Origin: Candidatus Sulfurimonas baltica
Lineage (GTDB): Bacteria > Campylobacterota > Campylobacteria > Campylobacterales > Sulfurimonadaceae
DNA length: 64,000 nt
Reading direction: 5' to 3'
Assembly: GCF_015265455.1 (NCBI RefSeq)
Contig: NZ_CP054492.1
Span: 2,604,001-2,668,000 of the forward strand
The notes beneath the pieces were generated by a model that saw only the letters and a program-made list of their open reading frames with translations, did not search any database and was not told the origin of the DNA. Shown here in pieces: positions 6,146-23,922 of this stretch (its first letter is position 1; each line of letters starts with the position of its first letter). The translations under genes were made by a program, and so were the position numbers.

Positions 6146-6601
6146 CTATTGTAAAAGTTTAAGAACGTTTTGTTGAACAGCATTAGCTTGACTCATAGCG
6201 TATGAGCCAGATTGAGCTAAAATATTGTGTTTTGCAAAGTTTGCACTCTCTGCAGCAAAGTCAACATCTCTCAAAGTTGATTGAGCTGACTCTACATTTA
6301 CTTGAGTAACAGAAATATTTCTAACTACTGACTCAAGTGAGTTTTGATCCGCACCAATATTTGCTCTAATTGTGTCAAGTGCACCGATACGAGTATCCAT
6401 TACAGCAATAACAGCTTGTGCGGCAGCAGCATTTGTTGAAACATCTTGAGCACCAACAGCTAGCGTGTCTGCAATCGCAACATCTTTAGCATCAGCAGCT
6501 TTATGACCAATCTGTATATTAAGAGGTCCTGTACCACTTAGTAATGGTTTATCATTAAAAGTAGTACTAGTACGAATTTGATCAGACTCAACAATAAATC
6601 C
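6146..6601 (-). pseudogene. Truncated flagellin, C-terminal half only
   Basis: The minus frame encodes about 150 residues that align without gaps to the second half of the three intact flagellins, from [15 protein letters not shown] through [18 protein letters not shown] to QQNVLKLLQ. The first ~120 codons (D0/D1 N-terminal helices), the start codon, the leader and the sigma-28 promoter are missing. At the break the sequence reads GGATTTATTGTTGAG, as if GGATTTAT from codon GFI was joined to CTTATTGTTGAG further on, and an in-frame TAA lies 12 bases upstream. Likely a deletion derivative of a fourth tandem copy. An internal ATG at 6400 could start an 84-residue fragment, but no ribosome-binding site supports it. 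Confidence 0.85.
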
Positions 6602-6666
6602 CTTAATGAGTATTTAGATTATAAAAAGCAAAAAACATTCCAAGTTATGAAGTAAGGTTATGAAGT

Positions 6667-6697
6667 AAAAAAATAGCAAGGGAGGAATCCCCTGCTT
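6667..6697 (-). terminator. Intrinsic terminator after the flagellin array
   Basis: Minus strand: AAGCAGGGG, ATT-containing loop, CCTCCCTTGCT, then ATTTTTTTA. A GC-rich stem with a T run, downstream of the flagellin gene ending at 6780; a good Rho-independent terminator. Confidence 0.7.
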
Positions 6698-6779
6698 GTA
6701 GAAGTTTTAAAGAGTCACTATTGTAATAATCTCAATACATTTTCTAAAGAAACGTGCAGGGCTTACGCCCTCAACTCAT

Positions 6780-9786: not shown

Positions 9787-12006
9787 TTGAACTTAATTAT
9801 CGTCGAATCACCAGCTAAGGCTAAAACTATCAAGAACTTCCTTGGCAAGGAGTATGAGGTTATCGCATCTAAAGGGCATATACGAGATTTGCCTAAGTCT
9901 CGCTTTGGAATAACTGTAGAAGAAGAGACTCAGCACCTTGTACCAGCATATAGTGTTGCAAAAGAGAACTCCGCCATTGTAAAAGAGATCAAAGAGCTTG
10001 CAAAAAAAGCTGATACAATATATATCGCGACCGATGAGGATCGCGAGGGTGAGGCTATTGGATGGCATATTGCTCATGCTATAAAAAAAGACCCAGAAGA
10101 GTTACCTCGTATCGTATTTCATGAGATTACAAAAACTGCAATAAACAATGCACTTGAAAATGCCCGCAAAATTGATATGGATATGGTAAATGCACAGCAA
10201 GCTCGTCGTATGCTTGACCGTGTTGTAGGCTATAAACTCTCTCCACTTCTTAGCTCAAAAATTCAAAAAGGGCTTTCAGGCGGTCGTGTTCAGTCTTCTA
10301 CTCTTAAGCTTGTAGTAGACAGAGAACGTGAAATAAATGCTTTTATACCTGTAGAGTTCTGGTCTATCGACACTATGTTTAAAAAAGATATTGAGGCAAC
10401 TCTTACATCTCATATGGGAGATAAACTTTCAAAACTTTCAATCTCTAACAAAGATGAAGCTGCAGTGATAACACAAAGTGTAAATAATGACTCATTTATA
10501 ATCTCTAAAATAGAGACTAAAGAGAGAAAAAGTTCTACTCCACCGCCATTTATGACCTCAACTCTACAACAAACTGCTTCAAGCAAATTGGGATTTACCC
10601 CTAAAAAGACTATGATGGTAGCACAGGCGCTTTACGAGGGTGTAAAAACACCGAGCGGGACTTCTGGTGTTATTACCTATATGAGAACAGATTCACTAAA
10701 CCTCGCAGCGGAAGCTGTAGATGCTGTTCGTGGTGTTATTGAGAGCAGATTTGGGGAGAAATACCTACCTAAAGAGGCAAAAGTTTATAATAAAAAATCT
10801 AAAGGTGCGCAAGAGGCTCACGAAGCTATCCGTCCTACTATGCTTGATTTTACTCCTGAAGTTGCACAAAAATTTCTTAAAGCTGATGAGATTAAACTCT
10901 ATCGTCTAATATATGAAAGATTTATGGCTTGCCAGATGAATGATGCGATATTTGAACAACAGAGTATTATATTTACTGGTGAGAACAACGAGTATAGAGC
11001 AAGTGGCAGAAAACTTATTTTTGATGGTTTTTATGCACTAACAGGGGCGGAAGACAAAGATAAGCTTTTACCGACTTTGACAGAGGGTAGCAAAGCAGAG
11101 ATTCAGAGTGTTAAACAAGAGCAACACTTTACTGAACCGCCGGCTAGATACTCTGAGGCTGCACTGATTAAAAAACTTGAAAGCGAAGGGGTTGGACGTC
11201 CATCTACTTATGCTCCAACAATTGCAACACTAAGCGGTCGTACTTACGTGACTATTGAGAAAAAACAGATTATTCCAACTGAGATTGCATTTACTGTAAC
11301 TGATATGCTGGAAAAAAACTTTGCTAACATTGTAGATATCTCTTTTACAGCCAATATGGAAGAAAAACTTGATGAAGTAGCAGAAGGAAATAGTGACTGG
11401 CAAGAACTTTTAAGTGAATTTTATTTCCCTTTTATAGAGCAGATTAACGAAGGTAAAGAGAAAATTGTTTCACTAAAATTGGCTAAACCACTTGGTAGAG
11501 CTTGCCCTAAATGTGGGGAAGAGTTGCTTCTTCGTTCTGGCAGATTTGGAAACTTTGTTGCATGCAGCGGCTTTCCTACATGTAAATATACGGAACAAGT
11601 TGATGAAGATGGAAATAAAGTAGAAGTAGTAGTTGAGACAAGCGGCGTGATATGTGATAAGTGTGGGAAAGATATGATAGTTAAAAATGGCAGAAACGGT
11701 CAATTTTTAGCTTGTAGCGATTACCCAGATTGTAAAAACACTAAGAGCATTAATGTTGAAGAGAAAACATCTGAGACACCTTGTCCAGACTGTGGTGGGA
11801 CGATAAGCCTTAAGAATTCTCGTCGTGGTCCTTTTTGGGGGTGTGAAAACTATCCTGATTGTAAGTTTATTTCAAAATTTGAACCGACAAAAATCAAGTG
11901 TCAAGAGAAAGACTGTAATGGTCTACTAGCTGAAAGAACTTTTAGAAAAAAAGAAATTTATGAGTGTGTAAAATGTAAAGCTAAAACACCGAGGGAAGAG
12001 AACTAG
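9787..12006 (+). CDS. topA: DNA topoisomerase I
   Basis: A 739-residue type IA topoisomerase that relaxes negative supercoils. The TOPRIM domain is at the N terminus (MNLIIVESPAKAKTIKNFLG; DEDREGEAIGWH near 82), the active-site Tyr is in ITYMRTDS near residue 300, and EGVGRPSTYAPTIATL follows. The C terminus has four Cys4 zinc ribbons (CPKCGEELLL, CDKCGKDMIV, CPDCGGTISL, CQEKDCNGLL). The start is TTG at 9787 with AGGAAAAC upstream; no ATG fits the conserved start. Confidence 0.97.
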   Translation: MNLIIVESPAKAKTIKNFLGKEYEVIASKGHIRDLPKSRFGITVEEETQHLVPAYSVAKENSAIVKEIKELAKKADTIYIATDEDREGEAIGWHIAHAIKKDPEELPRIVFHEITKTAINNALENARKIDMDMVNAQQARRMLDRVVGYKLSPLLSSKIQKGLSGGRVQSSTLKLVVDREREINAFIPVEFWSIDTMFKKDIEATLTSHMGDKLSKLSISNKDEAAVITQSVNNDSFIISKIETKERKSSTPPPFMTSTLQQTASSKLGFTPKKTMMVAQALYEGVKTPSGTSGVITYMRTDSLNLAAEAVDAVRGVIESRFGEKYLPKEAKVYNKKSKGAQEAHEAIRPTMLDFTPEVAQKFLKADEIKLYRLIYERFMACQMNDAIFEQQSIIFTGENNEYRASGRKLIFDGFYALTGAEDKDKLLPTLTEGSKAEIQSVKQEQHFTEPPARYSEAALIKKLESEGVGRPSTYAPTIATLSGRTYVTIEKKQIIPTEIAFTVTDMLEKNFANIVDISFTANMEEKLDEVAEGNSDWQELLSEFYFPFIEQINEGKEKIVSLKLAKPLGRACPKCGEELLLRSGRFGNFVACSGFPTCKYTEQVDEDGNKVEVVVETSGVICDKCGKDMIVKNGRNGQFLACSDYPDCKNTKSINVEEKTSETPCPDCGGTISLKNSRRGPFWGCENYPDCKFISKFEPTKIKCQEKDCNGLLAERTFRKKEIYECVKCKAKTPREEN

Positions 12007-12012
12007 AACAAC

Positions 12013-12537
12013 ATGAAGATAGGAATTATTTCAGACACTCACTCTAAGGTTAAAAAAGCCAAGAAGGCTCTTGATACCTTAGTGAGGGACGGTGCTGAAT
12101 TTATAGTTCACGCAGGTGATATAGTAGAGCTTGAAACACTTGAGCTTCTTCGCGATTGCGGTCTGAAATATGTAGCGGTATATGGAAATAATGATGCACA
12201 TTTAGCAGAGTACCATAGTGAATTCAACCTCGTTCAAGAGCCTTATTTTTTTAAAATTGCACAGACAAAGTTTAAACTAATGCATCTCCCTTTTTACATG
12301 TCACCAGATGCTGATGTTGTAATATTCGGCCATACACATACATTTGACAGCGATTTTAAAGGAAACACTCTATTTTTAAACTCTGGTGAAGTGTGTGCGA
12401 GAAGCAAACCTCTCTCTGAATGGGCAATGCTTGAAGTGAAGAAAAGTGAATTTTTGGTCACCCATTACACAAAAGCCAACAGTAGCGATAATATTAATCA
12501 AAAACATTTTAAATATAAACGGGAACACAATGAATAA
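12013..12537 (+). CDS. YfcE/MJ0936-type metallophosphodiesterase
   Basis: A 174-residue calcineurin-like phosphoesterase. The metal-binding motifs are in order: SDTHS near residue 7, GDIVE near 36, GNND near 58 and GHTHT near 110. The family hydrolyses phosphodiesters with Mn-type metals; the physiological substrate is unknown. It lies 6 bases after topA and overlaps bioB by 8 bases, so the three may be co-transcribed. Confidence 0.88.
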   Translation: MKIGIISDTHSKVKKAKKALDTLVRDGAEFIVHAGDIVELETLELLRDCGLKYVAVYGNNDAHLAEYHSEFNLVQEPYFFKIAQTKFKLMHLPFYMSPDADVVIFGHTHTFDSDFKGNTLFLNSGEVCARSKPLSEWAMLEVKKSEFLVTHYTKANSSDNINQKHFKYKREHNE

Positions 12538-13375
12538 AGAGATATTTTTATGCTCTATTTGTAATATAAATAGCGGTACATGTAACGAAGATTGCAAATT
12601 TTGCTCTCAAAGCGTACGATACAAAGCAGATATACAAAGATACAAACAAAAAAATATAGAAGATATTTTAAAAGAGGCTAAAATTGCAAGAGACGGGGGA
12701 GCATTGGGTTTTTGTTTAGTTACTGCCGATAAGGGTCTAAATAAAAAAACTCTTGATTTTGTATGCTCTATTGCCAAAGTCTTAACTAAAGAAGTTCCCC
12801 AGCTAAGACTAATTGCATGTAACGGCACAGCAAGCGTAGAGCAACTTTTAACCCTTAAAGCATCCGGCATTAAGGCATATAACCATAACCTTGAAACATC
12901 AAAAGCGTTTTATCCACAAATTTGTACAACACACTCATGGGATGAGAGATACTCTACATGTAAGAATGTAAACGAGGCTGGATTAGTACTTATAACTGGT
13001 GGAATTTTTGGTCTTGGTGAAACACAAGAAGATAGAGTATCAATGCTAGAATCACTTAATTCTCTAAATCCAACTTCTGTCCCTATAAACTTTTACCACC
13101 ATAATGAAGCATTAGAGCTTCAACCAAACTCTCTAACTACAGACGAAGCACTCAATCTTATAAAGCTAACACGCGAGACAATTCCAAATGCACAGCGAAT
13201 CATGGTTGCAGGTGGCAGAGAAATTATGTTTGGTGAGAGGCAAGAGGAGATTTTTAACTACGGTGCAAACTCAATTGTAATAGGAAACTATCTTACAACA
13301 AACGGAAGAGTTATAAGTAAAGACTTAGATATGCTAGAATACCTTAGTTTAAAAGTTGCAAAATTAGTAAAATAG
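12530..13375 (+). CDS. bioB: Biotin synthase
   Basis: A 281-residue radical SAM enzyme that inserts sulfur into dethiobiotin. The [4Fe-4S]/SAM motif is C18xxxC22xxC25 (TCNEDCKFCSQS); further BioB signatures are CLVTA near 62, YNHNLETSKAF, TGGIFGLGET and RIMVAGGRE. It is the compact form seen in Helicobacter and Campylobacter. The ATG at 12530 is chosen because the longer ORF start lies inside the phosphoesterase gene and adds unrelated residues. Confidence 0.95.
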   Translation: MNKEIFLCSICNINSGTCNEDCKFCSQSVRYKADIQRYKQKNIEDILKEAKIARDGGALGFCLVTADKGLNKKTLDFVCSIAKVLTKEVPQLRLIACNGTASVEQLLTLKASGIKAYNHNLETSKAFYPQICTTHSWDERYSTCKNVNEAGLVLITGGIFGLGETQEDRVSMLESLNSLNPTSVPINFYHHNEALELQPNSLTTDEALNLIKLTRETIPNAQRIMVAGGREIMFGERQEEIFNYGANSIVIGNYLTTNGRVISKDLDMLEYLSLKVAKLVK

Positions 13376-13390
13376 ATACGGAGAACATTT

Positions 13391-14545
13391 ATGTCTGATA
13401 ACGTTGTGTTAATAGTAACTATTTCGCTTATTATTATATTCTCACCATTCTTTGCCAAACTTCTAAAACTTCCTACCACACCGATAGAGATAATTTTAGG
13501 TTCCATTTTTGGATATGTTGGTTTTTTACATAATGAGCATCTTTTTGAGATAGTTGCAGAGCTTGGATTTTTATATCTGATGTTTATAGCCGGGACAGAG
13601 ATTAACTTAAAGAATACTCTAAAAACCCCTTCTAACATAATGAAAAAGGTTACTATTTACCTTATTCTTTTATATACTTTTTCCATATCTCTATCTCTGT
13701 ACCTTGATTTAGGAAAAATATTTATGGTACTTTTACCGCTAATATCAGTTGGTTTGGTTGCTACACTTTCAAAGGAGTACGGAAAAACACCTTGGCTTAC
13801 TCTATCTATGACAGCAGGAGGAATAGGAGAGGTGGTAAGTATCGGTCTTTTAACCCTCACTTCTGCTGCGCTGCAGTCCGGATTTGGATTGGGACTTATT
13901 AAAACAATTTTTGCTCTTTTAGTATTTCTACTTTTTATGTTCTTACTATTTAGAGCGATGGAACTACTTTTTTGGTGGTTTCCTGAAGTATCAACATCTT
14001 TAATGCCACATATCGACAACAAAGAACAAGATATAAGACTCTCGATGGGGATATTCTTTCTTCTTGTGGGTGCCATGCTATATTTAAAACTTGAGCTTGC
14101 CTTTGGAGCATTTTTGGCTGGAATATTTATTCCAACATTCTTTGAGCACAAACATGAACTACCCGAGAAGTTGGCCTCATACGGGTTTGGATTTTTAATT
14201 CCTATATTTTTTATCCATATTGGAAGTTCTTTTCATCTTGATGCATTAGTGATTGAAGGTCTGATTTCAAAAGCTGCAATCATAGCTTTTGCCATGATTG
14301 TTATGAGAGTGGTAGCTTCTCTTGTCTTTATAAAAGAGTTAAAGCTTGCTGATTCTATACTTATGGGTCTGTCACACTCTATGCCTCTTACTCTTCTTAT
14401 TGCAATGGCAACCCTAGCGTATAATGCAAACAGTATAGATGAACTTCACTACTATGCTTTTATTTTAGCTTCTCTTTTTCAGGTAATTGCTGTTATGATT
14501 GTTATTAAACTTATCAATAACTATAAGCTTGCGAAGGGGTTATGA
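13391..14545 (+). CDS. Kef/CPA2-type cation:proton antiporter
   Basis: A 384-residue membrane protein with about 11-12 hydrophobic segments, of the monovalent cation:proton antiporter-2 type. The N-terminal block (LLKLPTTPIEIILGSIFGYVG) and ELGFLYLMFIAGTEI are typical of this fold, as is ELAFGAFLAGIFIPTF later. There is no C-terminal RCK/TrkA domain, so it is a membrane-only version. It starts 16 bases after bioB and its stop overlaps the next start codon (ATGATG). Confidence 0.85.
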   Translation: MSDNVVLIVTISLIIIFSPFFAKLLKLPTTPIEIILGSIFGYVGFLHNEHLFEIVAELGFLYLMFIAGTEINLKNTLKTPSNIMKKVTIYLILLYTFSISLSLYLDLGKIFMVLLPLISVGLVATLSKEYGKTPWLTLSMTAGGIGEVVSIGLLTLTSAALQSGFGLGLIKTIFALLVFLLFMFLLFRAMELLFWWFPEVSTSLMPHIDNKEQDIRLSMGIFFLLVGAMLYLKLELAFGAFLAGIFIPTFFEHKHELPEKLASYGFGFLIPIFFIHIGSSFHLDALVIEGLISKAAIIAFAMIVMRVVASLVFIKELKLADSILMGLSHSMPLTLLIAMATLAYNANSIDELHYYAFILASLFQVIAVMIVIKLINNYKLAKGL

Positions 14546-14925
14546 TGCCACGTTCTGTTTTACTGCAACTTGCTCGTGACTCAATACAAGAAGTGCTAGA
14601 GGCAAAAAGAACGATAAACAAGGCAGCTCTTTTACGTAAACATCCTCTTTTAAATCAGATGATTGCTACCACAGTAAATATTTACATTGACAATAAACTT
14701 AGAGGAAGCTCAAAAACAAAAATCCCATCTTTTACACTTCTTGAGGATATAATAAGAAATGCAAAAATATCAGCATTTGAAGATAAGAGTTTCACCCCTA
14801 TTTCAACTTCTGAGTATTTAAGCTGTGAGATAGAGATACTCATTACAACTCCCGATGGAGTTATAAGCGAAAAAGACCCATCAATTCTTAAAACAACTTC
14901 TTATTCGCTTGGAAAAGATATTTAA
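14542..14925 (+). CDS. AMMECR1-like domain protein lacking the conserved Cys
   Basis: A 127-residue protein that reads like a reduced AMMECR1 domain: LLQLARDSIQE at the start, VNIYIDNKLRGSS in place of the usual V.L...G.LRGCIG, LLEDIIRNAKISAFEDKSFTPIS (NA..AAF.D.RF.PL) and CEIEILITTPDGV. The normally invariant Cys after LRG is replaced by Ser and the protein ends soon after the EIEIL strand, whereas full domains are near 180-200 residues. Function unknown. Translationally coupled to the antiporter. Confidence 0.65.
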   Translation: MMPRSVLLQLARDSIQEVLEAKRTINKAALLRKHPLLNQMIATTVNIYIDNKLRGSSKTKIPSFTLLEDIIRNAKISAFEDKSFTPISTSEYLSCEIEILITTPDGVISEKDPSILKTTSYSLGKDI

Positions 14926-14934
14926 TTATCATAG

Positions 14935-15459
14935 TTAAAATGAGGCTTTTATTGCAAGGTCAACCTGATCTCTGACACACATGAAGACCATGCACGGCAT
15001 CTCAATACCAAAGTCGCTAACAAGTATCATTGTAGAAGCGTTTATAACCAAACTGCCATTTTCAACTTTTATATCTGCATTTGCACTTAGAGGTCTCTCT
15101 TGTCCGTGAAAACTCATTGTTCCATTTATAGTATAAGAGTCTTTTGCCTCTTTTTTTGTTATATCTAAAATAGTATAGGTTGCATCTTTAAACTTATCGG
15201 CTTCAACCTCTTTATACATACTCTCATCTCTGTCTGTTTTGTTGCTGATAAAACCAATCATATCAACCCAAAACTTTCCTTTTATGGTAGTAATATCATT
15301 GTTTTGTATGCTTAACTCAGCCTTCAAAGAGTTGTTCGTTGGATTAATTTCACTATCCATCATCATCTCTGTATGTGCAACAACCGAACCATCTTTTAGT
15401 TTTAAATCCATTGCGAGAAGAGGAAGACTTAGAAGTAGAACTATTAGTAAATTTTTCAT
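14935..15459 (-). CDS. YceI-family periplasmic protein
   Basis: A 174-residue secreted protein: signal peptide MKNLLIVLLLSLPLLAM, then a YceI-type lipocalin fold with KGKFWVDM, FKDATYTILDI, YTINGTMSFHGQERPLSA and FGIEMPCMVF. YceI proteins bind isoprenoid or other long lipid ligands. It is the last gene of the operon, 9 bases after the polytopic membrane protein, and converges on the AMMECR1-like gene. Confidence 0.82.
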   Translation of the reverse strand: MKNLLIVLLLSLPLLAMDLKLKDGSVVAHTEMMMDSEINPTNNSLKAELSIQNNDITTIKGKFWVDMIGFISNKTDRDESMYKEVEADKFKDATYTILDITKKEAKDSYTINGTMSFHGQERPLSANADIKVENGSLVINASTMILVSDFGIEMPCMVFMCVRDQVDLAIKASF

Positions 15460-15468
15460 TGTAAATCC

Positions 15469-16377
15469 TTAATATATAAGTTTAAAAAGCGCTAACGCTA
15501 AACCCAGACCAGAAGCAATCCAGCCAACAAACACCATTATAAACGCAAGTTTAGAGAGGCTCATCTCTTTGCTTAATGTTCTAAAGACTGTAACATTATA
15601 GTACGAAATTGTAAAAGGGTAAAGTATCGCAAGTAAAAGAGGCATCTCAAAATAAAATAGAGAATAACTTCCTAAAAACAACAAAGCAATAATAATATGC
15701 TGTTTTTTCTTTGTAATAGCTATAAGGTATGCAGCCAATAAACCAACTACATGAAATATCCCAATTATAAGTGTATGTTTAGACCAAATATCCAACTCAT
15801 TATGCCTAGAGAGAGTCTCAAACAAAGTAGAATCTAAAAGTATCCATAATATCAAAGGAGCATAAGAAACAAATGACAATGATAGAATCTTTGCATCTGT
15901 ATCAACTTTGTAATTTTTAAGCAAAACTGCACTAAAAAGAGCAATAAAAGAGAAAATAATTGCCAACAACAGTCTGTCATCAACATCGGATGTATAAAAG
16001 TACGTACCGGCGATGTAAGCAATAGCCAGAGCAAGAAGAAGTTGGTTGCTCTGCTTTACTTTAAACAGGTAAATTCCCAATGGAGCCATAAGACCGACAG
16101 CTAGCCCTAAAATAGAGAGAGTGTATATGTTGTAGTGTGGATAAGTAAATGATAGTAGCAGCTGAAGCGTTAAGGCAATCATGATTTTGTGTATCGGTTC
16201 AACTATCTTGCCCCAAGACCTGCCGCTTAAGATTGTTCCTAAAATGCCACCCACAAACATAGGAAAAAGCACTGTTAAATCAGAGTTGTAATGCGCGACA
16301 ACTCCTGTTTGAATTATTAAAAGATAATAGCTTAGTTCAAATCCAAGAAGTAAAACAAGAGCGAACGAATTAATCAT
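15469..16377 (-). CDS. Polytopic membrane protein, unknown
   Basis: A 302-residue, very hydrophobic protein with about 9-10 predicted membrane spans and few charged loops. The N-terminal GFELSYYLLIIQTG...FPMFVGGILGTILSGRSWGK is faintly like half of an MFS carrier, but I cannot assign a family. It overlaps the oxidase-like gene by 4 bases (ATGA), so it is made together with it. It could be an accessory membrane subunit of that protein or a transporter. Confidence 0.75.
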   Translation of the reverse strand: MINSFALVLLLGFELSYYLLIIQTGVVAHYNSDLTVLFPMFVGGILGTILSGRSWGKIVEPIHKIMIALTLQLLLSFTYPHYNIYTLSILGLAVGLMAPLGIYLFKVKQSNQLLLALAIAYIAGTYFYTSDVDDRLLLAIIFSFIALFSAVLLKNYKVDTDAKILSLSFVSYAPLILWILLDSTLFETLSRHNELDIWSKHTLIIGIFHVVGLLAAYLIAITKKKQHIIIALLFLGSYSLFYFEMPLLLAILYPFTISYYNVTVFRTLSKEMSLSKLAFIMVFVGWIASGLGLALALFKLIY

Positions 16378-17915
16378 AAGCGGTTCCTAAACAGTAGGTA
16401 AACCAAGGCAAATGAGATATCGTAAAAACCTACCAGGAGGCCAAGCATATCTATAGTTTCTAGGTAAAACAAAGATAAGAACATGGTGCCGGTAATAATC
16501 CTTGCGATAGAGGTTAGATATGCCAAAAGGTGAGCCTCTTTAGTAATACCTATGAGATGTAAGATGCCGACAAAACCCATAAAACCAAAAACCAAATAGT
16601 AGTAAGGGGAAAAAGATAGTCCCAAAAATTCAAAAAGAAGAGGTCCCGCCAAGATGAGAATTAAAGCGCCCAGACCATCTGATGCAAAACCGCTTAAATG
16701 ATAAAGCTGAAGTATGGATGGCTTTTTGTACTCCATCTTCTGGAGGATATAAAAAGCTAAACCTGTTACCGCCAATACCCCTGCTATAAGACGAGCATAC
16801 CACATTGTAATAACATCTATTTTAAGGAAACCAGCTTCATCAAAACCAGCTAAAGTGAGGGAGACAAAGATTATTCCAATGACATAAAGCCAAAAGTGGA
16901 TAAATGCTTTATGAAATTTATAAAAATAGCTAAGAACGCTCATCGACATAAAAAATATGCCAAGCCCAACGGCAAGATGTGCATGTGCGATTGTAATGTC
17001 ATTTTTATGCATAGCAAATCTAATCTCTGGAAAGAAGAGAATATTGCCCTGAATCATCACAAACAAAAAGGTCCAGATAGATATAACCAAGTATGGCGCA
17101 GATCTAAGAGTGATTTTTGCATCTCTGCACCATTTTATAAGCAGTGGGGCATAGGCAAATGTCATCCACTGGTAAATCCACTCCTCACCGTATGACAAAT
17201 CACCTCTAAGTATACGAGTAGCGACTGATACAATATAAGCTACAAATGGAAGTACCCAAAATATATGCCACTTTGGCTTGAAGTCATCTTTTGCATGAAT
17301 CTTTATAAGAAGATAAAACAGAGGAATTAAGGTAAAACTCATCCCCAAAGTGTTATCACCGTGAGGACCGACTAGAGTTTTTTCTACTTGACCAATTTCT
17401 GGATTCATCAAAATTAAAAGTGCTATTGGTGCGCTAAAAAGAGCAGCCTTGGAGACTTTTACCCATATTGGGGGAACGGAATACTGTTTAATAATTTTAA
17501 AAATTGCAATAATATAAAAAACTCCGCTAAGAGCAAGTAAGAAGTTAAGCTCGTAAGCAAAATCATAAAAAGGGAGACCTCTTTGAACTCCCAATCCAAT
17601 TGAGAGAGCTGCCATAAACAAAAACAGATGCCAAAGAAAAAAATAATTTCTAATTGGAACAACGGCATCATCCAAATTTAATCCATCTTTAGAGAACAGT
17701 GCAAACGGAAGCAGAGAGAGTGCAAGCATCATAGGACCATAAAGCATTAGTGTTATATGAAGTGAACGGGTTGTTGCAGCATTTAGAAGTGTATTGTCAA
17801 GCATACTAAATCCAACGAGTTGTGCGGCATATATAGCTCCAACTAAGACAGAAGCTAAAAATACAAAAGCCCACACCGGCACAATAGAGTGTATTAACTT
17901 ATTGAAGTTTGCCAT
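16374..17915 (-). CDS. Haem-copper-oxidase subunit I-like protein without CuB/FeB ligands
   Basis: A 513-residue, about 12-14-span membrane protein that can be laid on CcoN/NorB by eye. Helix II keeps the low-spin haem His (TTRSLHITLMLYG, H53). Helix X keeps the HxH pair (NDITIAHAHLAVGLG), which in oxidases binds both haems. In place of the helix VI motif GHNAVGF(F)LT it has GDNTLGMSFT, so the CuB His is Asp (a nearby GPH His is two residues away), and the helix VII His-His region (AGPHH) reads ATRILRG. If this alignment is right, the protein may bind haem but cannot form a normal binuclear centre. It overlaps the ABC ATPase gene by 17 bases and the next membrane gene by 4. Confidence 0.72.
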   Translation of the reverse strand: MANFNKLIHSIVPVWAFVFLASVLVGAIYAAQLVGFSMLDNTLLNAATTRSLHITLMLYGPMMLALSLLPFALFSKDGLNLDDAVVPIRNYFFLWHLFLFMAALSIGLGVQRGLPFYDFAYELNFLLALSGVFYIIAIFKIIKQYSVPPIWVKVSKAALFSAPIALLILMNPEIGQVEKTLVGPHGDNTLGMSFTLIPLFYLLIKIHAKDDFKPKWHIFWVLPFVAYIVSVATRILRGDLSYGEEWIYQWMTFAYAPLLIKWCRDAKITLRSAPYLVISIWTFLFVMIQGNILFFPEIRFAMHKNDITIAHAHLAVGLGIFFMSMSVLSYFYKFHKAFIHFWLYVIGIIFVSLTLAGFDEAGFLKIDVITMWYARLIAGVLAVTGLAFYILQKMEYKKPSILQLYHLSGFASDGLGALILILAGPLLFEFLGLSFSPYYYLVFGFMGFVGILHLIGITKEAHLLAYLTSIARIITGTMFLSLFYLETIDMLGLLVGFYDISFALVYLLFRNRL

Positions 17916-18522
17916 CTACCATCCTTAGTTTTTTAGTTGCATACTCTTCAACTTTCATGTCATGAGAAGCTACCACAACCGTCGTACCATTTTTTACACA
18001 CTTTGCTAAAAGCTCATATACAATTGCACTGTTCTTAGAGTCCAAACTCCCTGTAGGCTCATCTGCAAAGATGATTTTTGGCTCATTTATAAGTGCACGT
18101 GCCAAAGCAACTCTCTGTCTTTGCCCACCTGAAATCTCATTTGGATAACGTTTTGCCAACTCCAAAATTCCAAGTTGCTCTAGCAGTCTACTAATGTTTT
18201 TCTTTTTCTCATCTATGGCTGCTAAAGCAATATTCTCATACACACTGAGATAGTTTATAAGGTAGTGAAATTGAAAAACAAAGCCTATGTTTTTTTGACG
18301 AAACTTGTCCAAATTTGAAATCTCATCCATATGAAAGTTGTCTATTAAGAACTCTCCTCTTGATGGTTTAAGCAGGGTTGAGAGGATAGAGAGGAGAGTT
18401 GATTTTCCACTTCCACTATCTCCGCTTAAAAATACAAATTCACCCTCTTTTATCTCCAACGAGAGATCATAAAGGACTTGCTCTTTTCCATAAAAATGTG
18501 AAATATTAGATGTTTTTATCAT
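17899..18522 (-). CDS. ABC transporter ATP-binding protein (LolD/MacB type)
   Basis: A 207-residue ATPase with Walker A SGDSGSGKST near residue 36, Q-loop FVFQFHYLINYL, signature SGGQRQRVALARAL, Walker B IIFADEPTGSLD and the switch His in VASHD. The SGGQRQRVA and EPTGSLD versions are those of the LolD/MacB/FtsE group, matching the FtsX-type permease upstream. The ATG at 18522 overlaps the permease stop (ATGA); an upstream GTG is less likely. Confidence 0.92.
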   Translation of the reverse strand: MIKTSNISHFYGKEQVLYDLSLEIKEGEFVFLSGDSGSGKSTLLSILSTLLKPSRGEFLIDNFHMDEISNLDKFRQKNIGFVFQFHYLINYLSVYENIALAAIDEKKKNISRLLEQLGILELAKRYPNEISGGQRQRVALARALINEPKIIFADEPTGSLDSKNSAIVYELLAKCVKNGTTVVVASHDMKVEEYATKKLRMVDGKLQ

Positions 18523-19592
18523 GAGCACCCCTGATTTATCAGAAGTATTGGGTCTGTTTTAGAAGCTATCCACGCTGGGATTAGTGAGCCAACAAGAGCC
18601 ATAAGCAGTGTTGAGACTAAGACATATAGAGCAGTGGAGAGTGAAAGTGACCCATTGACATATCCTTGAAGAGTCTCTACATGTGGAATAATCTCCAAAA
18701 TTATCAAGCTTAAAATAAGAGCAAATATATAAGCTGATATGCTCATAATAAGTGTCTCAAAAAAAAGATTTTTAATTATAAAAAGTCTGCTTTTTCCAAG
18801 AGCTCGCATAATGCCGAACTCCTCTTTGCGGGAGTTGACTATCATACTCATAACAGATGCGATGCCCATAAGACCCATGGCAAATGCAAGAGTAGAGATA
18901 ACTAAAGATGAGTTTTCTATAATCTTGAACTGGTTATACTCTTTGACAAAACTTTTTGTTGTTTTTACCTCTATTTCACTATCCAAAGCGGAGATGCTTT
19001 TTAGAATTTTATTTGTATAGTCCGGGGACAAGGAAGATACTATAATATATGAGGCTGAGCGGTTAAAAAGCTCCCCGGCATCTTCTATATTCATAACTAA
19101 ACCACCCTCTTCAAAGCCAACATCACTACTGTAAGTGCCTGAGATCATAAAGAGCTTGTTTCCAATTTTTATGCTTGGAGTGGTGAACTGTTTAGCTATA
19201 TTTCCGCCCAACATAACCTCCCCACTCTTTGGGTATTTACCATTTGAGAGTTTGTAGTGCCCAAAATGATTTTTTGTTGTCCCATATATTCCGGCTATTG
19301 GAATATGTCCAACGGGAGAGGCTCCAACAACCATCGCATAGCTTGATTTAACACTCTGCGTTTTGTTTATTTTATCCAGAAGCGTAATATCTACATTGGA
19401 AAAGAAAGTATCAGAGATACCCTTTTGCGTAATTATAATATCTCCGTCTGTTTTAATCATGGTAGAGAACATTCCGATTATCCCCTGAGAGACCGAAGTG
19501 ATTAAAAAAATTGCCATTACCGCTATGGTAATAGATGAAAATATAAGCAAACTTTTAAAGCGGTTTTTGCTTAAAGCTTTTAATGAAATCAC
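18519..19592 (-). CDS. ABC transporter permease (FtsX/MacB/LolE family)
   Basis: A 357-residue permease with an N-terminal transmembrane helix (LLIFSSITIAVMAIFLIT), a periplasmic MacB_PCD-like domain (about 45-225) and three C-terminal helices with FtsX motifs SRKEEFGIMRALGKSR and LVGSLIPAWIASKTDPI. Such type VII ABC systems do mechanical work across the periplasm (lipoprotein release, efflux) and usually do not import. It is made with the ATPase (4-base overlap) and the upstream periplasmic protein (4-base overlap). Confidence 0.9.
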   Translation of the reverse strand: MISLKALSKNRFKSLLIFSSITIAVMAIFLITSVSQGIIGMFSTMIKTDGDIIITQKGISDTFFSNVDITLLDKINKTQSVKSSYAMVVGASPVGHIPIAGIYGTTKNHFGHYKLSNGKYPKSGEVMLGGNIAKQFTTPSIKIGNKLFMISGTYSSDVGFEEGGLVMNIEDAGELFNRSASYIIVSSLSPDYTNKILKSISALDSEIEVKTTKSFVKEYNQFKIIENSSLVISTLAFAMGLMGIASVMSMIVNSRKEEFGIMRALGKSRLFIIKNLFFETLIMSISAYIFALILSLIILEIIPHVETLQGYVNGSLSLSTALYVLVSTLLMALVGSLIPAWIASKTDPILLINQGCS

Positions 19593-20059
19593 TTTTCAAT
19601 TGCCAATTTTAGTTCTTGTTTTGTGGATATGTAAGAGATATTTTTAATTTTTCCATCTTCCACCCTTAGTAGCGTTATCTTTGCCTCTTTGTTTGGAACA
19701 ACAGTTCCAAATTTTTCATCATAATGCAGATATATAAGATGTTTATATTTTCTAAGCTTTGGGAGGGCAAACATATTTGTAATTACAGTGGGCATCTTAT
19801 TGATATCGGCTATAAAAATAGCACGATTCATTTGCAGATAGTATGCATCTTGAGTATCTAGATACTCGTTTACCAAAGCTCCTGTCTCTTTGTCAAAAGC
19901 GGCAATTACAAGCTTTGGGTTTTTAGGAACTCTCATCTCACGCCCTTGCGGAGTTTCATATTTAAAACCGTTAAGTTCGCCAAGAGCAGAACCAATTTCA
20001 ATCGAGCTTGCACCTAAAAAAGCTGCAAAAATGCTTACTATTAATAAAAATCTATTCAT
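19589..20059 (-). CDS. Periplasmic protein, unknown; first gene of the oxidase-like/ABC operon
   Basis: A 156-residue protein with a signal peptide (MNRFLLIVSIFAAFLGASS, likely cleaved near 20) and a mature part with no Cys. The sequence GFKYETPQGREMRVPKNPK, then VIAAFDKETGALVNEYL and AIFIADINKMPTVITNMF, suggests a compact alpha/beta fold, faintly thioredoxin-like, but without a CxxC. I do not recognise the family. A TATAAT lies 24 bases upstream and AAGGAAAAGAT precedes the ATG, so this is the operon start. Confidence 0.75.
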   Translation of the reverse strand: MNRFLLIVSIFAAFLGASSIEIGSALGELNGFKYETPQGREMRVPKNPKLVIAAFDKETGALVNEYLDTQDAYYLQMNRAIFIADINKMPTVITNMFALPKLRKYKHLIYLHYDEKFGTVVPNKEAKITLLRVEDGKIKNISYISTKQELKLAIEK

Positions 20060-20082: not shown

Positions 20083-20088
20083 ATTATA
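20083..20088 (-). promoter_or_regulatory. -10 box of the six-gene operon
   Basis: TATAAT on the minus strand, 24 bases upstream of the first start codon; a leader of about 17 bases carries AAGGAAAA. No -35 or operator repeat is obvious. Confidence 0.55.
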
Positions 20089-20099
20089 CTCTTTAAATA

Positions 20100-20846
20100 C
20101 TAATTGATTGTAAAAACAGGAATCTCGCTTGGAACCCTGTATCGAACCTTCGGTCCCCAATATCCCAACCCTCTCGTGACATAGAGAAGTGTTTTATTTC
20201 TGACATAGAGTCCTGAAAAATATGGCTGAAAGAATTTCACGACAATATTGAAGGGATAAACCTGCCCTCCATGAGTATGTCCGCTCAACTGAATATCTAT
20301 GCGGAATTTATCTACATGCAGAATATCTTTTGGTTGATGTGCTAGTAATATTGTTGAGAGGTTTGGGTCAAGCTTTGCAAAAAGCTCTTTGATTGGTCGC
20401 TTTATGCCGCGTGCAAAACTATATCTGTCGCTAAGTCCGACGAGTTGCAGGGGCACACCATTTATAGAGAGTATTTCAATCTTGTTATCCAAGCATATTA
20501 CCCCGGCATCAAAAAGCATATCTTTTAAAGCAGTTGGGCCGTAAACAATATCATGATTCCCTGTGACATAATAGGTAGGCGCCACTAGTAATTTAAAAGT
20601 TTTAAGATGCTTATGAAGCTTTGTTGCGAATGTTTGAAGAATATCGCCTGTTATAACTACAAGGTCTGGATTTAAACCATTGATTTTTGCAATCAGTGTT
20701 TTTAGATAGCTTATCTCAATATTTTGCGTAAGATGAAGGTCCGAGAGTTGAACAATGCGAAGACCCTTAAGAGATGAGGAGAAATTTTGTGCTTGCAAAC
20801 TGATTTCTTCAAAAGGAAAATGTGTCCAGCCGGTTTGTAATGACAT
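20100..20846 (-). CDS. YkuE-like metallophosphoesterase
   Basis: A 248-residue calcineurin-fold phosphoesterase. The metal ligands are in VQLSDLHLT near residue 32, VVITGDI near 60, VTGNHD near 96, ILLAHQPKD near 166 and LSGHTHGGQVYP near 182. This arrangement is of the YkuE/UDP-2,3-diacylglucosamine-pyrophosphatase-like group; LpxH function is possible but cannot be settled here. It has no clear N-terminal membrane helix. It lies 6 bases after the lipoprotein gene. Confidence 0.85.
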   Translation of the reverse strand: MSLQTGWTHFPFEEISLQAQNFSSSLKGLRIVQLSDLHLTQNIEISYLKTLIAKINGLNPDLVVITGDILQTFATKLHKHLKTFKLLVAPTYYVTGNHDIVYGPTALKDMLFDAGVICLDNKIEILSINGVPLQLVGLSDRYSFARGIKRPIKELFAKLDPNLSTILLAHQPKDILHVDKFRIDIQLSGHTHGGQVYPFNIVVKFFQPYFSGLYVRNKTLLYVTRGLGYWGPKVRYRVPSEIPVFTIN

Positions 20847-20852
20847 AATGTA

Positions 20853-21488
20853 TTATCTACTCAAATCTTCTCTGAATTGTTCTAGTAAACCGTCAAGTGA
20901 CATTTTCAAATCAGCAAACTCTAAACTATTGTTATTAAGAACAATCTTATCACCCTCTTGTATATTTCTACTGATGCGTAAAACTTTTCCGTTTTGAGAA
21001 TCTAGCAGACGACTCTCGCCTAATAGCCTCACATCTTCATCCATGTAGGCATTATAAGAGACTACATTTAGTCCCATTGCTATTGGTGTAAAATTATCCC
21101 ATTTATTATCATTGAAATGTACTTCAACGGCAGAAACAGCACTTTCAAATTTTAGAGTATTCACTGATTTTACCTCTGTCAATTTAAACTTTTCACTATT
21201 TTCAATCTCTTTTTTGTATGCTGATGTTAAATACTCAGAGATTTCTTTATATAATTTTTTTTGCGAGAGAGTTTGCTTATCTTCTGAAATTGAGGATATT
21301 ACCAAAACTGGAGCCACGATTATATTTTTGTATTTTAATAAATCAGTTTTATTTATATTAGAGTTATTAAGATGTGTATAATTTTCAAAAAAGCCGCTAT
21401 TTTTTGCTTGTATAGTTCGGCTTGAACACCCACTCATTAAAAACACGACACCAACGACTATACCTACTGCTAAAGTTTGTAATCTCAA
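20853..21488 (-). CDS. Lipoprotein, DUF3313-like
   Basis: A 211-residue protein with a lipoprotein signal (VGVVFLMSGC, lipobox Cys near residue 21). The mature start (SGFFENYTHLNN) and the YKNIIVAPVLVIS block resemble DUF3313 proteins, a family of secreted or lipid-anchored proteins with unknown role. It is followed by the metallophosphoesterase. The family call is from memory of motifs and is moderate. Confidence 0.7.
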   Translation of the reverse strand: MRLQTLAVGIVVGVVFLMSGCSSRTIQAKNSGFFENYTHLNNSNINKTDLLKYKNIIVAPVLVISSISEDKQTLSQKKLYKEISEYLTSAYKKEIENSEKFKLTEVKSVNTLKFESAVSAVEVHFNDNKWDNFTPIAMGLNVVSYNAYMDEDVRLLGESRLLDSQNGKVLRISRNIQEGDKIVLNNNSLEFADLKMSLDGLLEQFREDLSR

Positions 21489-21611
21489 ATCTAATCCTTT
21501 GTATATTTATATTAACAACATTCTATATTAAAACCGCTCTACCCTTGTTAAATCAAATAGATAATTTAATATTTTATGCTATCATTAATGATATTAATAT
21601 TAGGCTTCATA

Positions 21612-22196
21612 GTGAAACATTTAAAAATTATTTTCAGTTTATTACTAACAGCGTTTATGCTCTCAGGTTTTTGGTCAGGTAAAAGCGATAAAGAGATAAA
21701 AGAGGATAATAGGCAGGAGAGAATAGAGCGCCACAAGGTAAACAATGAAACACTTCAGCTTCTATATAAATACGCACCCAAAGCTAGAGATATGGTTTTA
21801 AGATCTTACGGATACGCAACATTTACTAATGTTGGTGTAAATATAGTTTTATTTTCCGTAGAAGGTGGAAAAGGTATGGCACGCAACAATAGAACTGGAT
21901 GGACAACATATATGAATATGGCCTCTGGCGGAGTTGGTCTAGGGCTTGGCATTAAGGATTTTAGAGCTGTATTTTTATTTGAAAACAAAAAAGCCTTTGA
22001 TTCATTTGTTAATTCAGGGTGGGAAGCTAACGCTCAAGCAGATGCGGCTGCCAAAGTTGGCAAAGAGGGGGGAGCTGTAAATGCTGCAATTACAGTTGCT
22101 CCTGGAGTAAGACTCTACAAGTTGACTCAAAACGGTCTTGCAATTCAAGCAACAGTACAAGGTACAAAATATTGGAAAGATGCTGAACTTAACTAA
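21612..22196 (+). CDS. SYLF (YSC84-like) domain protein
   Basis: A 194-residue secreted protein with signal peptide (KHLKIIFSLLLTAFMLSGF). The SYLF/Ysc84 domain is recognised by YGYATFTNVGVNIVL, VEGGKGMARN, MNMASGGVGLGLGIKDFRAVFLFENKKAFDSF and the end with NGLAIQATVQGTKYWKDAELN. SYLF domains bind phosphoinositide-type lipids in eukaryotes; the bacterial role is unclear. The start is taken as GTG at 21612; earlier ATGs (21576, 21588) add a non-signal-like stretch. Confidence 0.82.
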   Translation: MKHLKIIFSLLLTAFMLSGFWSGKSDKEIKEDNRQERIERHKVNNETLQLLYKYAPKARDMVLRSYGYATFTNVGVNIVLFSVEGGKGMARNNRTGWTTYMNMASGGVGLGLGIKDFRAVFLFENKKAFDSFVNSGWEANAQADAAAKVGKEGGAVNAAITVAPGVRLYKLTQNGLAIQATVQGTKYWKDAELN

Positions 22197-22215: not shown

Positions 22216-23922
22216 TTAAAAAGCTAGCACTAAGCGAATTCCTGCTTCTTGATTTTTGCCCCAAATTTTAAATATAATTTTCTTAGTAATTGGAGTAGTA
22301 AAATATGCTTCAAAGTCACCTTTGCTTTTCCTTCCGGTAAAGAATACTGGTTCTCTAAAGTCGATTCCTATGTGGCTTAAACCGTTCCAGTAGCTAAGGC
22401 CTGCTAAAACTTCAATACCTGCTGTCATTTTTAGTGGATAAACAGTTGCCTGTCCCATTCCATACCATAGCAGAGAAGATGTCCCATATGAAACTCCTGA
22501 TCCAACTTGCACAAGTGGCTGTAATGAACTATCTTTGAGTGATCGATCTGCTCCTGCGTATATTTTCCAAGATACAGGATGATAAAAATCGAATCTCTTT
22601 GTAAGCGATTCGATTTTAAGCAAAGTAAACGATTGAAGAGAAGTTTTATTTTCAATACGTCGCATTTCTAATCCTAAAAATTCTAGAGTTCCATCACCCA
22701 ATTCTGAATATAAATCATGAATTCGGTTAAATAGTATAGGACGTACGTTTAGGTCTAATCCTTCAACTCCATTTACTTGAAGATATCCAACCTCTATTTT
22801 AGAGCTTCCATGGCGTATTGGCTCTCCTATATATCGCTCATTAGGTGGAGTATAGGGGAGTTGTTTTACATCTTCGAAATCACCTTTTCCTTGATGAAAG
22901 CGTTTAAATAAAATATCATAGTAGCCATTTATAAGATAGCCAAGCTTATCTTTAGTTTCATTAGATAAGTTTATACTCTCTAATTCTTCTTTTTTATCTC
23001 CACTGTTTTTCCATCTGGAAAAAAAATCTTTTTCTTCAGCAGTAAAGCCATTATATATCGTATGTAAACTATTAATTAATGGTGGTTGAGTGTCGATTTG
23101 CATGACAAGCCCTGCTTTTTTTATTTCATTTATAGTTTCATATGGAATTACAGCATATGGAAAATTTTCTCTAAGCTTTAGCCCAGGTCTAGCTACTTCT
23201 AAAAACCAAAGCATTTCATAGGCGCAGTTTTCAGTAAAAAATTTGTAATTAATGTTTGCATCATAAAGCTCATAGGCATGCCAGAGCATATTTTCAATTT
23301 CATCTTGTGTTAAATTAAGACGATATTCACTGAGGCTTCGTTGTTCAACAATGTTATAACCTTCATGTAACTTGAAATAAGGCTCTGCTACGAATTTTCC
23401 ATTAAATCCTCCTCTTATACCTTTAGATAGCAGGTCAATAAATCCAACTTCTTGAGGAATCTCTGCAGCAAAACTGAGTGTTTGTGAAAAAAATCGGTTA
23501 TTAGTTTTATGGATTGTGATAAACGTGTGACCAAAATAGGATATGGGCGAACCAAGATATGAGGAAGCAAATGACATACTTACAGATTCTCCACGGGAGT
23601 CTTTTAAAAATTCGTTTAAATTAGTACAGTGGTCAAAAGTTATATTTAAATCTAATTTCTTGTTTAAATAACGGTAGCGAGCAGGAAATCGGCAAAGCAT
23701 TTCATCTTTTTTATCACTTCTCAATTCACTTATAGCGATATTAAACTCATTTTCTGGAGAAAAAGGATTTGATAAAAAAAATTTAGGATCGTTGATATCA
23801 CTTTTGTTATCATCGCGAATATGCAGAAGCGAATGCCATTCAGGTGATTCAGCTAATGGCTGAGCATGGGCGCAGTTAATTACAAAAAAAACAGCAAAGA
23901 TAACTGAAAAGAAAAATTTCAA
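22216..23922 (-). CDS. DUF4105 (Lnb-type) periplasmic/outer-membrane protein
   Basis: A 568-residue secreted protein (signal MKFFFSVIFAVFFVINCAHA). The N-terminal half carries DUF4105 features: ASSYLGSPISYFGHTFITIH, then FFTENCAYEMLWFLEVARPG with the conserved Asn-Cys, the family of the Lnb N-acyltransferase-related periplasmic domain. The C-terminal 200 residues alternate hydrophobic/aromatic residues and end in LVLAF, fitting an outer-membrane beta-barrel. It overlaps the small upstream gene by 4 bases. The enzyme activity is not proven by sequence. Confidence 0.85.
   Translation of the reverse strand: MKFFFSVIFAVFFVINCAHAQPLAESPEWHSLLHIRDDNKSDINDPKFFLSNPFSPENEFNIAISELRSDKKDEMLCRFPARYRYLNKKLDLNITFDHCTNLNEFLKDSRGESVSMSFASSYLGSPISYFGHTFITIHKTNNRFFSQTLSFAAEIPQEVGFIDLLSKGIRGGFNGKFVAEPYFKLHEGYNIVEQRSLSEYRLNLTQDEIENMLWHAYELYDANINYKFFTENCAYEMLWFLEVARPGLKLRENFPYAVIPYETINEIKKAGLVMQIDTQPPLINSLHTIYNGFTAEEKDFFSRWKNSGDKKEELESINLSNETKDKLGYLINGYYDILFKRFHQGKGDFEDVKQLPYTPPNERYIGEPIRHGSSKIEVGYLQVNGVEGLDLNVRPILFNRIHDLYSELGDGTLEFLGLEMRRIENKTSLQSFTLLKIESLTKRFDFYHPVSWKIYAGADRSLKDSSLQPLVQVGSGVSYGTSSLLWYGMGQATVYPLKMTAGIEVLAGLSYWNGLSHIGIDFREPVFFTGRKSKGDFEAYFTTPITKKIIFKIWGKNQEAGIRLVLAF

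Follow-up and report, generated by a model that had tools for sequence, protein, structure and literature searches.

Introduction

Subunit I of the haem-copper oxidases, such as CcoN of the cbb3 oxidases and NorB of the cNOR nitric oxide (NO) reductases (NORs), is built on a core of 12 helices that carries histidines for a low-spin and a high-spin haem. A sextet of histidines, three for haem and three for CuB/FeB, is called the signature of this superfamily in the part of the literature cited here (PMC3413370). Altered metal ligands also occur in a branch of the family, the putative NO dismutases, which are divergent qNORs of Methylomirabilis. Lipocalins of the YceI family are described as holding ubiquinone-8 or other isoprenoids, and a Burkholderia pair encoded together, a YceI lipocalin and a b-type membrane cytochrome of the b561 kind (LcoA-BcnA), is reported to protect against lipid peroxyl radicals (PMC9113575, as excerpted). 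Type VII ATP-binding cassette (ABC) systems, such as MacB, LolCDE, FtsEX and HrtAB, pair an FtsX-like permease containing a MacB core with a LolD-like ATPase; MacB itself is described as carrying no substrate across the inner membrane and as spending ATP on work done outside it (PMC5985334, in part). Here we analyse a six-gene unit that joins members of these families, found on the minus strand at positions 14935-20059 of a 64,000-nucleotide stretch (the window) of the Candidatus Sulfurimonas baltica genome, a single contig of 2.74 Mb (NZ_CP054492.1, positions 2,604,001 to 2,668,000). It encodes, in order of reading, a 156-residue protein (p156), an ABC permease, an ABC ATPase, a membrane protein resembling haem-copper oxidases (the oxidase-like protein), a 302-residue protein predicted to have a major facilitator superfamily (MFS) fold, and a YceI lipocalin. 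The unit seems to be an undescribed cell-envelope machine of free-living relatives of Campylobacter, and literature searches by titles and abstract openings found no description of this gene set.

Compared with cbb3 CcoN and cNOR NorB, the oxidase-like protein lacks the CuB/FeB histidines and has four extra helices at its C terminus. Moreover, no electron-entry partner (CcoO/CcoP, NorC or a CuA subunit) was recognised by eye in the 45 largest clusters of neighbouring genes, judged on one example each, no profile search having been aimed at these partners. Set against the putative NO dismutases, the present family differs in that all 81 sequences have two of the metal ligands replaced, 69 of them the third as well. 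The unit's cytochrome has a COX1 fold and not the b561 fold of the LcoA-BcnA system, and an ABC pair, an MFS-fold protein, p156 and a hydrolase are added to the lipocalin. In contrast to other type VII ABC systems, the unit comprises six genes without a MacA adaptor or TolC duct and shows a fixed association with oxidase-like and MFS-fold genes; neither MacA nor TolC was found in the operon, nor by eye in the same 45 clusters, the genome not having been searched for them. A hydrolase that adjoins the unit in some relatives is similar to N-acyl-phosphatidylethanolamine phospholipase D (NAPE-PLD), but bacterial. The recognised components come from known superfamilies; the novelty is in their combination and in the converted haem site.

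The unit is conserved among Campylobacterota

A search of 60 genomes with the oxidase-like protein gave matches in 14, including the window's own; one was a remnant of 66 residues and one was cut by a contig end. The 13 other loci share most of their neighbours, partly rearranged. A scan of 84,980 species with two short peptide patterns then yielded 105 relatives, the best 80 of which were kept. These 80 fall into Sulfurimonas, Sulfuricurvum, Sulfurospirillum, Arcobacter in the wide sense, Sulfurovaceae and other groups, with Campylobacterota-type names for 79 and the title 'Proteobacteria bacterium' for one. Across the 81 loci formed by the window and these relatives, profiles matched the permease in 78, the ATPase in 79, the MFS-like protein in 77, YceI in 74, p156 in 62 and a calcineurin-like phosphoesterase, encoded next to p156 in the window, in 42, and some of the misses are loci cut by contig ends.

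Contiguity was assessed in the 49 well-flanked loci, which have at least 5 kb on both sides and include the window. All six core genes form one contiguous same-strand run in 38 of them (counts per gene are given in the table). Ten of the 11 incomplete loci have no p156 in the run. The remaining one, L042, has an insert (11539-15297) between its oxidase-like and MFS-like genes, made up of a gene with weak likeness to Porin_O_P, a gene that looks periplasmic and a two-component system. Genes of two clusters from this insert (36 and 37) recur close to the unit in both L102 and L108. In three loci whose flanks are shorter, the order is rearranged to 302-residue protein, YceI, MacB-type permease, ABC ATPase, oxidase-like protein, p156, with the same genes kept together. 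The spacing is conserved as well: measured on open reading frames (ORFs) taken from the first start codon, the ATPase-to-oxidase junction has a median of -17 across relatives (78 junctions), and the median is -4 from p156 to permease, from permease to ATPase, from oxidase to MFS and from MFS to YceI. Such spacing is more than a chance arrangement.

We then considered co-occurrence in 397 Campylobacterota genomes that are at least 90% complete. The oxidase-like profile matched 60 genomes and the MFS-like profile 60, and the two sets were identical. All oxidase-like matches had E values of 3.9e-144 or better, except for a second fragment in genome G419 at 5e-25, and nothing else was matched down to the limit of 1e-10; the oxidase-like proteins are thus a discrete family. 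A chance operon is ruled out by the contiguity in the 49 loci together with the identical genome sets. A mobile element was also rejected, as tblastn (E up to 1e-3) found no match for the oxidase-like protein in 72,556 plasmid records, and a pattern scan of viral contigs found no relative of the MFS-like protein. An earlier note on this DNA, made from its letters alone, had proposed that the six genes work as one envelope machine and had named scattered homologues, or a gene found mostly with standard nor or cox partners, as outcomes that would speak against it. The genes are together in relatives and not scattered, two of them share their presence and absence throughout, and no recurrent nor/cox partner was recognised by eye, on one example each, in the 45 largest neighbour clusters. 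Indeed, this pattern makes it very likely that the six genes form one machine.

The unit is patchy within Sulfurimonas, the genus of the window. In two genomes of this genus, p156 stands without the unit (L173:7405-7875 and L174:7235-7720), flanked by MgtE and by a gene resembling that at window 21576-22196. G012 and G369, which have no oxidase-like gene, show this arrangement of p156 and its two flanking genes (judged by eye). Carriers such as L041 have the unit enclosed by these flanks, and in G012 and G369 the genes from permease to YceI are absent; the comparison indicates a block that is gained or lost whole.

The oxidase-like protein retains haem ligands and has an altered metal site

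The COX1 profile of Pfam matches the window protein at 4.9e-6 (26.1 bits, below the Pfam cut-off of 34.8) and 34 of 38 family members at E values up to 0.5. The sole PDB match of the family's own profile at E up to 1 is subunit I of cbb3. An AlphaFold model of the protein (predicted local distance difference test, pLDDT, 86; predicted template modelling score, pTM, 0.85) matched cbb3 in Foldseek with a best E value of 9.6e-7. With VIA-align, comparison to NOR and cbb3 structures gave Z scores of 23.3-25.2 over 377-393 aligned residues at a root-mean-square deviation (rmsd) of 4.0-5.4, the best being 3o0r_B (Z 25.2, rmsd 4.0, 377 residues), with 3mk7_G at Z 24.1 (rmsd 4.4, 377 residues). The match extends from residue 1 to about residue 400. 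Beyond this 12-helix core the model has four additional predicted helices, 16 in total by our count, and these four remained unmatched in full-length fold searches. COX1 homology and the predicted core fold together indicate that the protein descends from the haem-copper oxidases. In a tree that has a single NOR among its 23 canonical sequences, the family forms a separate branch with 100/100 support and a very long stem, and the tree does not settle its closest class.

Ligand positions were set by aligning 16 of the 81 sequences with 16 CcoN, six A-type and one NOR sequence from Campylobacterota in three MAFFT modes. In all three modes, the canonical haem histidines aligned with H53, H311 and H313, and the canonical CuB/FeB histidines with D187, residue 233 and R234, while the A-type rows and the NOR row had His at all six sextet positions. 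H53, H185, D187, N188, R234, E245, W246, H303, H311 and H313 are invariant in 81/81 sequences. Residue 233 is I, Y, T, H (12/81) or others, and is not His in the window protein, which has three of the six sextet histidines; the sextet is incomplete in all 81. A profile alignment also pairs the histidine of transmembrane helix (TM) VI with D187; it puts the TM VII pair a few residues later with a gap, at about columns 238-239, where His is unconserved (24/81 and 5/81). Judging from these alignments, the CuB/FeB site has almost certainly been lost and the haem ligands kept. Since the CuB/FeB histidines are gone and the sextet is incomplete, neither oxidase nor NO reductase activity should be expected of the protein, and we rejected an ordinary oxidase or NOR on the ligand positions. 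The earlier note had drawn on the redox or proton chemistry of haem-copper subunit I proteins: the family membership stands, and chemistry of the ordinary oxidase or NOR type is not to be expected.

The partner proteins point to an envelope setting

The permease matches the Pfam families FtsX (1.1e-15) and MacB_PCD (2.1e-10), and the PDB matches of its profile include MacB, LolF, LolE, YtrF and FtsX. Walker A/B, signature and H-loop motifs of the ATPase are intact as read by eye. With an FtsX domain, a MacB periplasmic core and a LolD/FtsE-like ATPase, the pair is by its predicted domains a type VII (MacB-like) ABC system. YceI has a Pfam match at 1.1e-15, and its relatives of known structure include E. 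coli YceI (8.7e-14), PA0423 (8e-13) and polyisoprenoid-binding proteins, which marks it as a putative isoprenoid- or quinone-type lipocalin. Thus, the envelope setting that had been proposed for the unit from its MacB/Lol-type ABC pair and lipocalin holds.

The 302-residue protein alone has no Pfam match; 36 members together gave no Pfam match to MFS and nothing credible in Pfam or in PDB sequence profiles. Its AlphaFold model (pLDDT 94) matches many MFS chains in Foldseek and VIA-align, with Z scores of 22-24 (best 24.4) over about 290 residues at rmsd 3.1-3.8, and the predicted fold is that of the MFS. For p156, a signal-peptide-like start and a thioredoxin/peroxiredoxin-like pattern without conserved cysteines were seen by eye only and confirmed by no search; alone it gave only a chance-level Pfam match, and 25 members gave nothing credible in Pfam or PDB sequence profiles. 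Matches to p156 were found in 26 of 29 genomes searched. Six of these genomes were chosen as members of the genus Sulfurimonas that lack the unit, and five of them (all but G031) have a match; the carriers G041 and G431 have none, and p156 was rejected as a strict marker of the unit. At L180:7338-8479, a paralogue is separated by 2 nucleotides (nt) from a gene for AhpC/peroxiredoxin with the same orientation, which hints that the p156 family may act in redox stress.

Two types of hydrolase accompany the unit. In 53 loci counted, the phosphoesterase occurs in 32 and a NAPE-PLD-like hydrolase in 15, never both. The latter stands beside the unit in Sulfuricurvum- and Sulfurovaceae-type loci and not in the window stretch examined, which has the phosphoesterase; the copy in L060 matches human NAPE-PLD at E 4e-37. 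Twelve of the 15 NAPE-PLD-like genes are convergent with YceI and overlap it by 37-40 nt, and three lie 3.4-7.0 kb from YceI. In L182, the NAPE-PLD-like gene follows p156 on the same strand with a 4-nt overlap.

Possible function of the unit

Our best explanation, which we put forward tentatively, is that the unit serves redox maintenance of lipids or quinones. The machine would maintain the redox state of an apolar molecule in the periplasm and move it, the likeliest candidates being an isoprenoid quinone and an oxidised membrane lipid. Gene content, co-inheritance, fold and the loss of metal ligands beside kept haem ligands come from sequences and models; haem occupancy, electron path, substrate and division of labour are inferred. 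The oxidase-like protein would be a two-haem b membrane cytochrome fed with electrons by the menaquinol pool. On the periplasmic side, it would pass these either to a YceI-bound lipid or quinone or straight to a lipid at its high-spin haem. Powered by ATP, the MacB/Lol-type ABC pair would act on that molecule on the outer surface of the inner membrane, the MFS-fold protein would move it or its product across the bilayer, the phosphoesterase or NAPE-PLD-like hydrolase would trim the lipid head group, and p156 would assist in the periplasm. Quinol-fed electron delivery to a YceI-borne quinone or oxidised lipid is proposed by analogy with the Burkholderia system and MacB, and, of the haem or quinone handling or sensing that the earlier note had suggested, the presence of YceI, phosphoesterase and NAPE-PLD-like proteins in the unit or beside it leads us to prefer a quinone or lipid to haem. 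If this is true, a respiratory fold would have been reused for non-respiratory envelope work, its copper site swapped for an invariant Asp/Arg. The fixed ABC, MFS and lipocalin association would also offer a genetic handle on quinone and lipid upkeep in the envelope of free-living Campylobacterota, which are common in sulfidic redox gradients.

Several observations weigh against lipid or quinone maintenance by a fixed machine. MFS folds and MacB-type ABC systems also serve proteins, peptides, drugs and haem. Six of the 53 loci have neither hydrolase, and the two hydrolases split largely by lineage, so that their mutual exclusion may be phylogenetic. His at position 233 in 12/81 sequences is a metal-site remnant in some relatives. 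Paralogues of p156 occur outside the unit and in genomes without it, and many of the relatives are metagenome-assembled genomes. Furthermore, decayed copies show that parts can be lost. In G032, the closest relative seen, an internal deletion leaves 86 oxidase-like codons (the start and the last residues) and YceI has two nonsense codons (L033:7631-7891 and 6459-6716), with ATPase, permease, MFS-like gene and p156 open; this loss in the oxidase-like gene and YceI counts both as support for one unit and among the decayed copies. In G419, the oxidase-like gene is frameshifted into three overlapping frames (L172:8628-10172), with permease, ATPase, MFS-like gene and YceI open and a short phosphoesterase ORF (204 residues versus 255 in L052). 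In G055, which is Sulfurospirillum-type, the MFS-fold gene is interrupted by an insertion of about 0.9 kb (L026:6719-7632), in which two reading frames look transposase-like by eye; the other core genes present are open, and the flanks align with the uninterrupted L052 at 96-98%. The unit may tolerate the loss of one part, or the lesions in G419 and G055 may be recent.

Redox or gas sensing, in which a copper-free high-spin haem would bind O2 or NO or report the quinol redox state and gate ABC/MFS export of an envelope molecule, is unlikely on balance, yet has real points in its favour. It agrees with the kept haem ligands and lost metal site. At Arcobacteraceae-type loci such as L070, L073 and L096, genes for a two-component system that may regulate the unit come after the phosphoesterase (14 nt after it in L070, 14271-16305); another such system lies inside the L042 unit, and response-regulator genes of one cluster are found somewhere in the stretch in 37/81 loci. 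These regulators, however, stand at differing places in different lineages, and 16 helices with 81 invariant columns in 38 sequences are much for a sensor. HrtAB is a haem exporter. For haem or metal trafficking, the MacB-type ABC pair would act in a comparable way, the oxidase-like protein would serve as receptor for haem, and the carrier would be the MFS protein. The permease belongs to the MacB family, which includes HrtAB in the account cited (PMC5985334, in part), and the oxidase-like protein probably binds haem; HrtB is not in the 12 PDB matches of the permease profile, which excludes nothing. However, no haem-lyase, CcmC-like or iron gene was recognised by eye in the 45 largest neighbour clusters, and YceI and the lipid-type hydrolases would have no role; trafficking is somewhat less probable than sensing. 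Slightly more doubtful still is a conversion of the oxidase fold into a membrane peroxidase, an idea that comes from the likeness of Asp187/Arg234 to the distal Asp/Arg dyad described for dye-decolorizing peroxidases (PMC8463360, in part). The pair would lie on the presumed distal side of the high-spin haem, lipid or quinone hydroperoxides would be reduced with quinol electrons, and the ABC, MFS, YceI and lipid hydrolase proteins would bring in and clear oxidised lipids, making the unit a dedicated envelope lipid-repair machine of Campylobacterota.

The resemblance of permease and ATPase to Lol, FtsEX and MacB, and the DUF3313 lipoprotein gene that heads the unit in the window, would suit a Lol/MacB-like machine for lipoprotein or peptide export with the oxidase fold as a haem-free scaffold. 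This we consider improbable, by a shade more than the peroxidase, as the lipoprotein gene is in few of the loci and the three haem-ligand histidines, kept in all sequences, are hard to explain without haem. COX1 homology could instead mean that the protein assists ordinary respiration or denitrification (cbb3, NOR or NosZ) as an accessory or assembly factor, or is itself an oxidase or NO reductase, and several carrier lineages are known denitrifiers. Against this stand the incomplete sextet and the distribution: 23 of 25 relatives have a COX1-family match above the cut-off, yet the unit is in only 60/397 genomes. NosZ was over the cut-off in 23/60 carriers versus 102/337 non-carriers (Fisher p 0.23), without a match in the window's own genome; a denitrification link was rejected on these grounds, and a respiratory factor of any kind is very improbable.

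Operon layout and neighbouring genes

An ORF check found all six minus-strand genes where the earlier note had drawn them and confirmed their junctions: overlaps of 4 nt between p156 and permease, 4 nt between permease and ATPase (with the ATPase ATG at 18522; 10 nt with a GTG at 18528), 17 nt between ATPase and oxidase-like gene (17899-17915) and 4 nt between oxidase-like and MFS-like genes (16374-16377), and a 9-nt gap between MFS-like gene and YceI (between 15459 and 15469). The TATAAT hexamer that had been taken for their promoter is present, but it is weak as a promoter: having no acceptable -35 element, it is not among the promoter-like sites, of which the region holds 26 against 26.0 in shuffles. 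Because the metallophosphoesterase gene lies 40 nt upstream of p156 on the same strand, and the DUF3313 lipoprotein gene 6 nt further upstream, the transcription unit probably starts further upstream than had been drawn and comprises eight genes in the window.

Table. Features of the unit and its surroundings (window positions)
Feature	Position	Strand	Evidence or conservation
p156, 156 aa	19589..20059	-	in same-strand run at 39/49 well-flanked loci
FtsX/MacB-type ABC permease with MacB periplasmic core, 357 aa	18519..19592	-	Pfam; 49/49 well-flanked loci
LolD/FtsE-like ABC ATPase	17899..18522	-	Pfam ABC_tran; 49/49 well-flanked loci
Haem-copper-oxidase-fold membrane protein (predicted), 513 aa	16374..17915	-	Pfam COX1, predicted fold, ligand alignment
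Compact MFS-fold membrane protein (predicted), 302 aa	15469..16377	-	AlphaFold model; Foldseek and VIA-align; 48/49 well-flanked loci
YceI lipocalin, 174 aa, signal-peptide-like start (by eye)	14935..15459	-	Pfam; 47/49 well-flanked loci
Calcineurin-like metallophosphoesterase, probable further unit member	20100..20846	-	Pfam; same-strand run in 30/49 loci
DUF3313 lipoprotein, possible first gene of transcription unit	20853..21488	-	Pfam; found in 9/81 loci
TATAAT hexamer, weak as promoter	20083..20088	-	
His53 codon, low-spin haem ligand position, TM II	17757..17759	-	invariant 81/81
Asp187 codon, place of canonical TM VI CuB/FeB histidine	17355..17357	-	invariant 81/81
Arg234 codon, place of second His in TM VII His-His pair	17214..17216	-	invariant 81/81
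His311-Ala312-His313, high-spin and low-spin haem ligand positions, TM X	16977..16985	-	both His invariant 81/81

Near the unit, the window also encodes an envelope protein with Lnb_N, DUF7840 and DUF7843 domains (22216-23922); in 11 loci, a gene of cluster 14 that looks similar by eye is found upstream of the unit.

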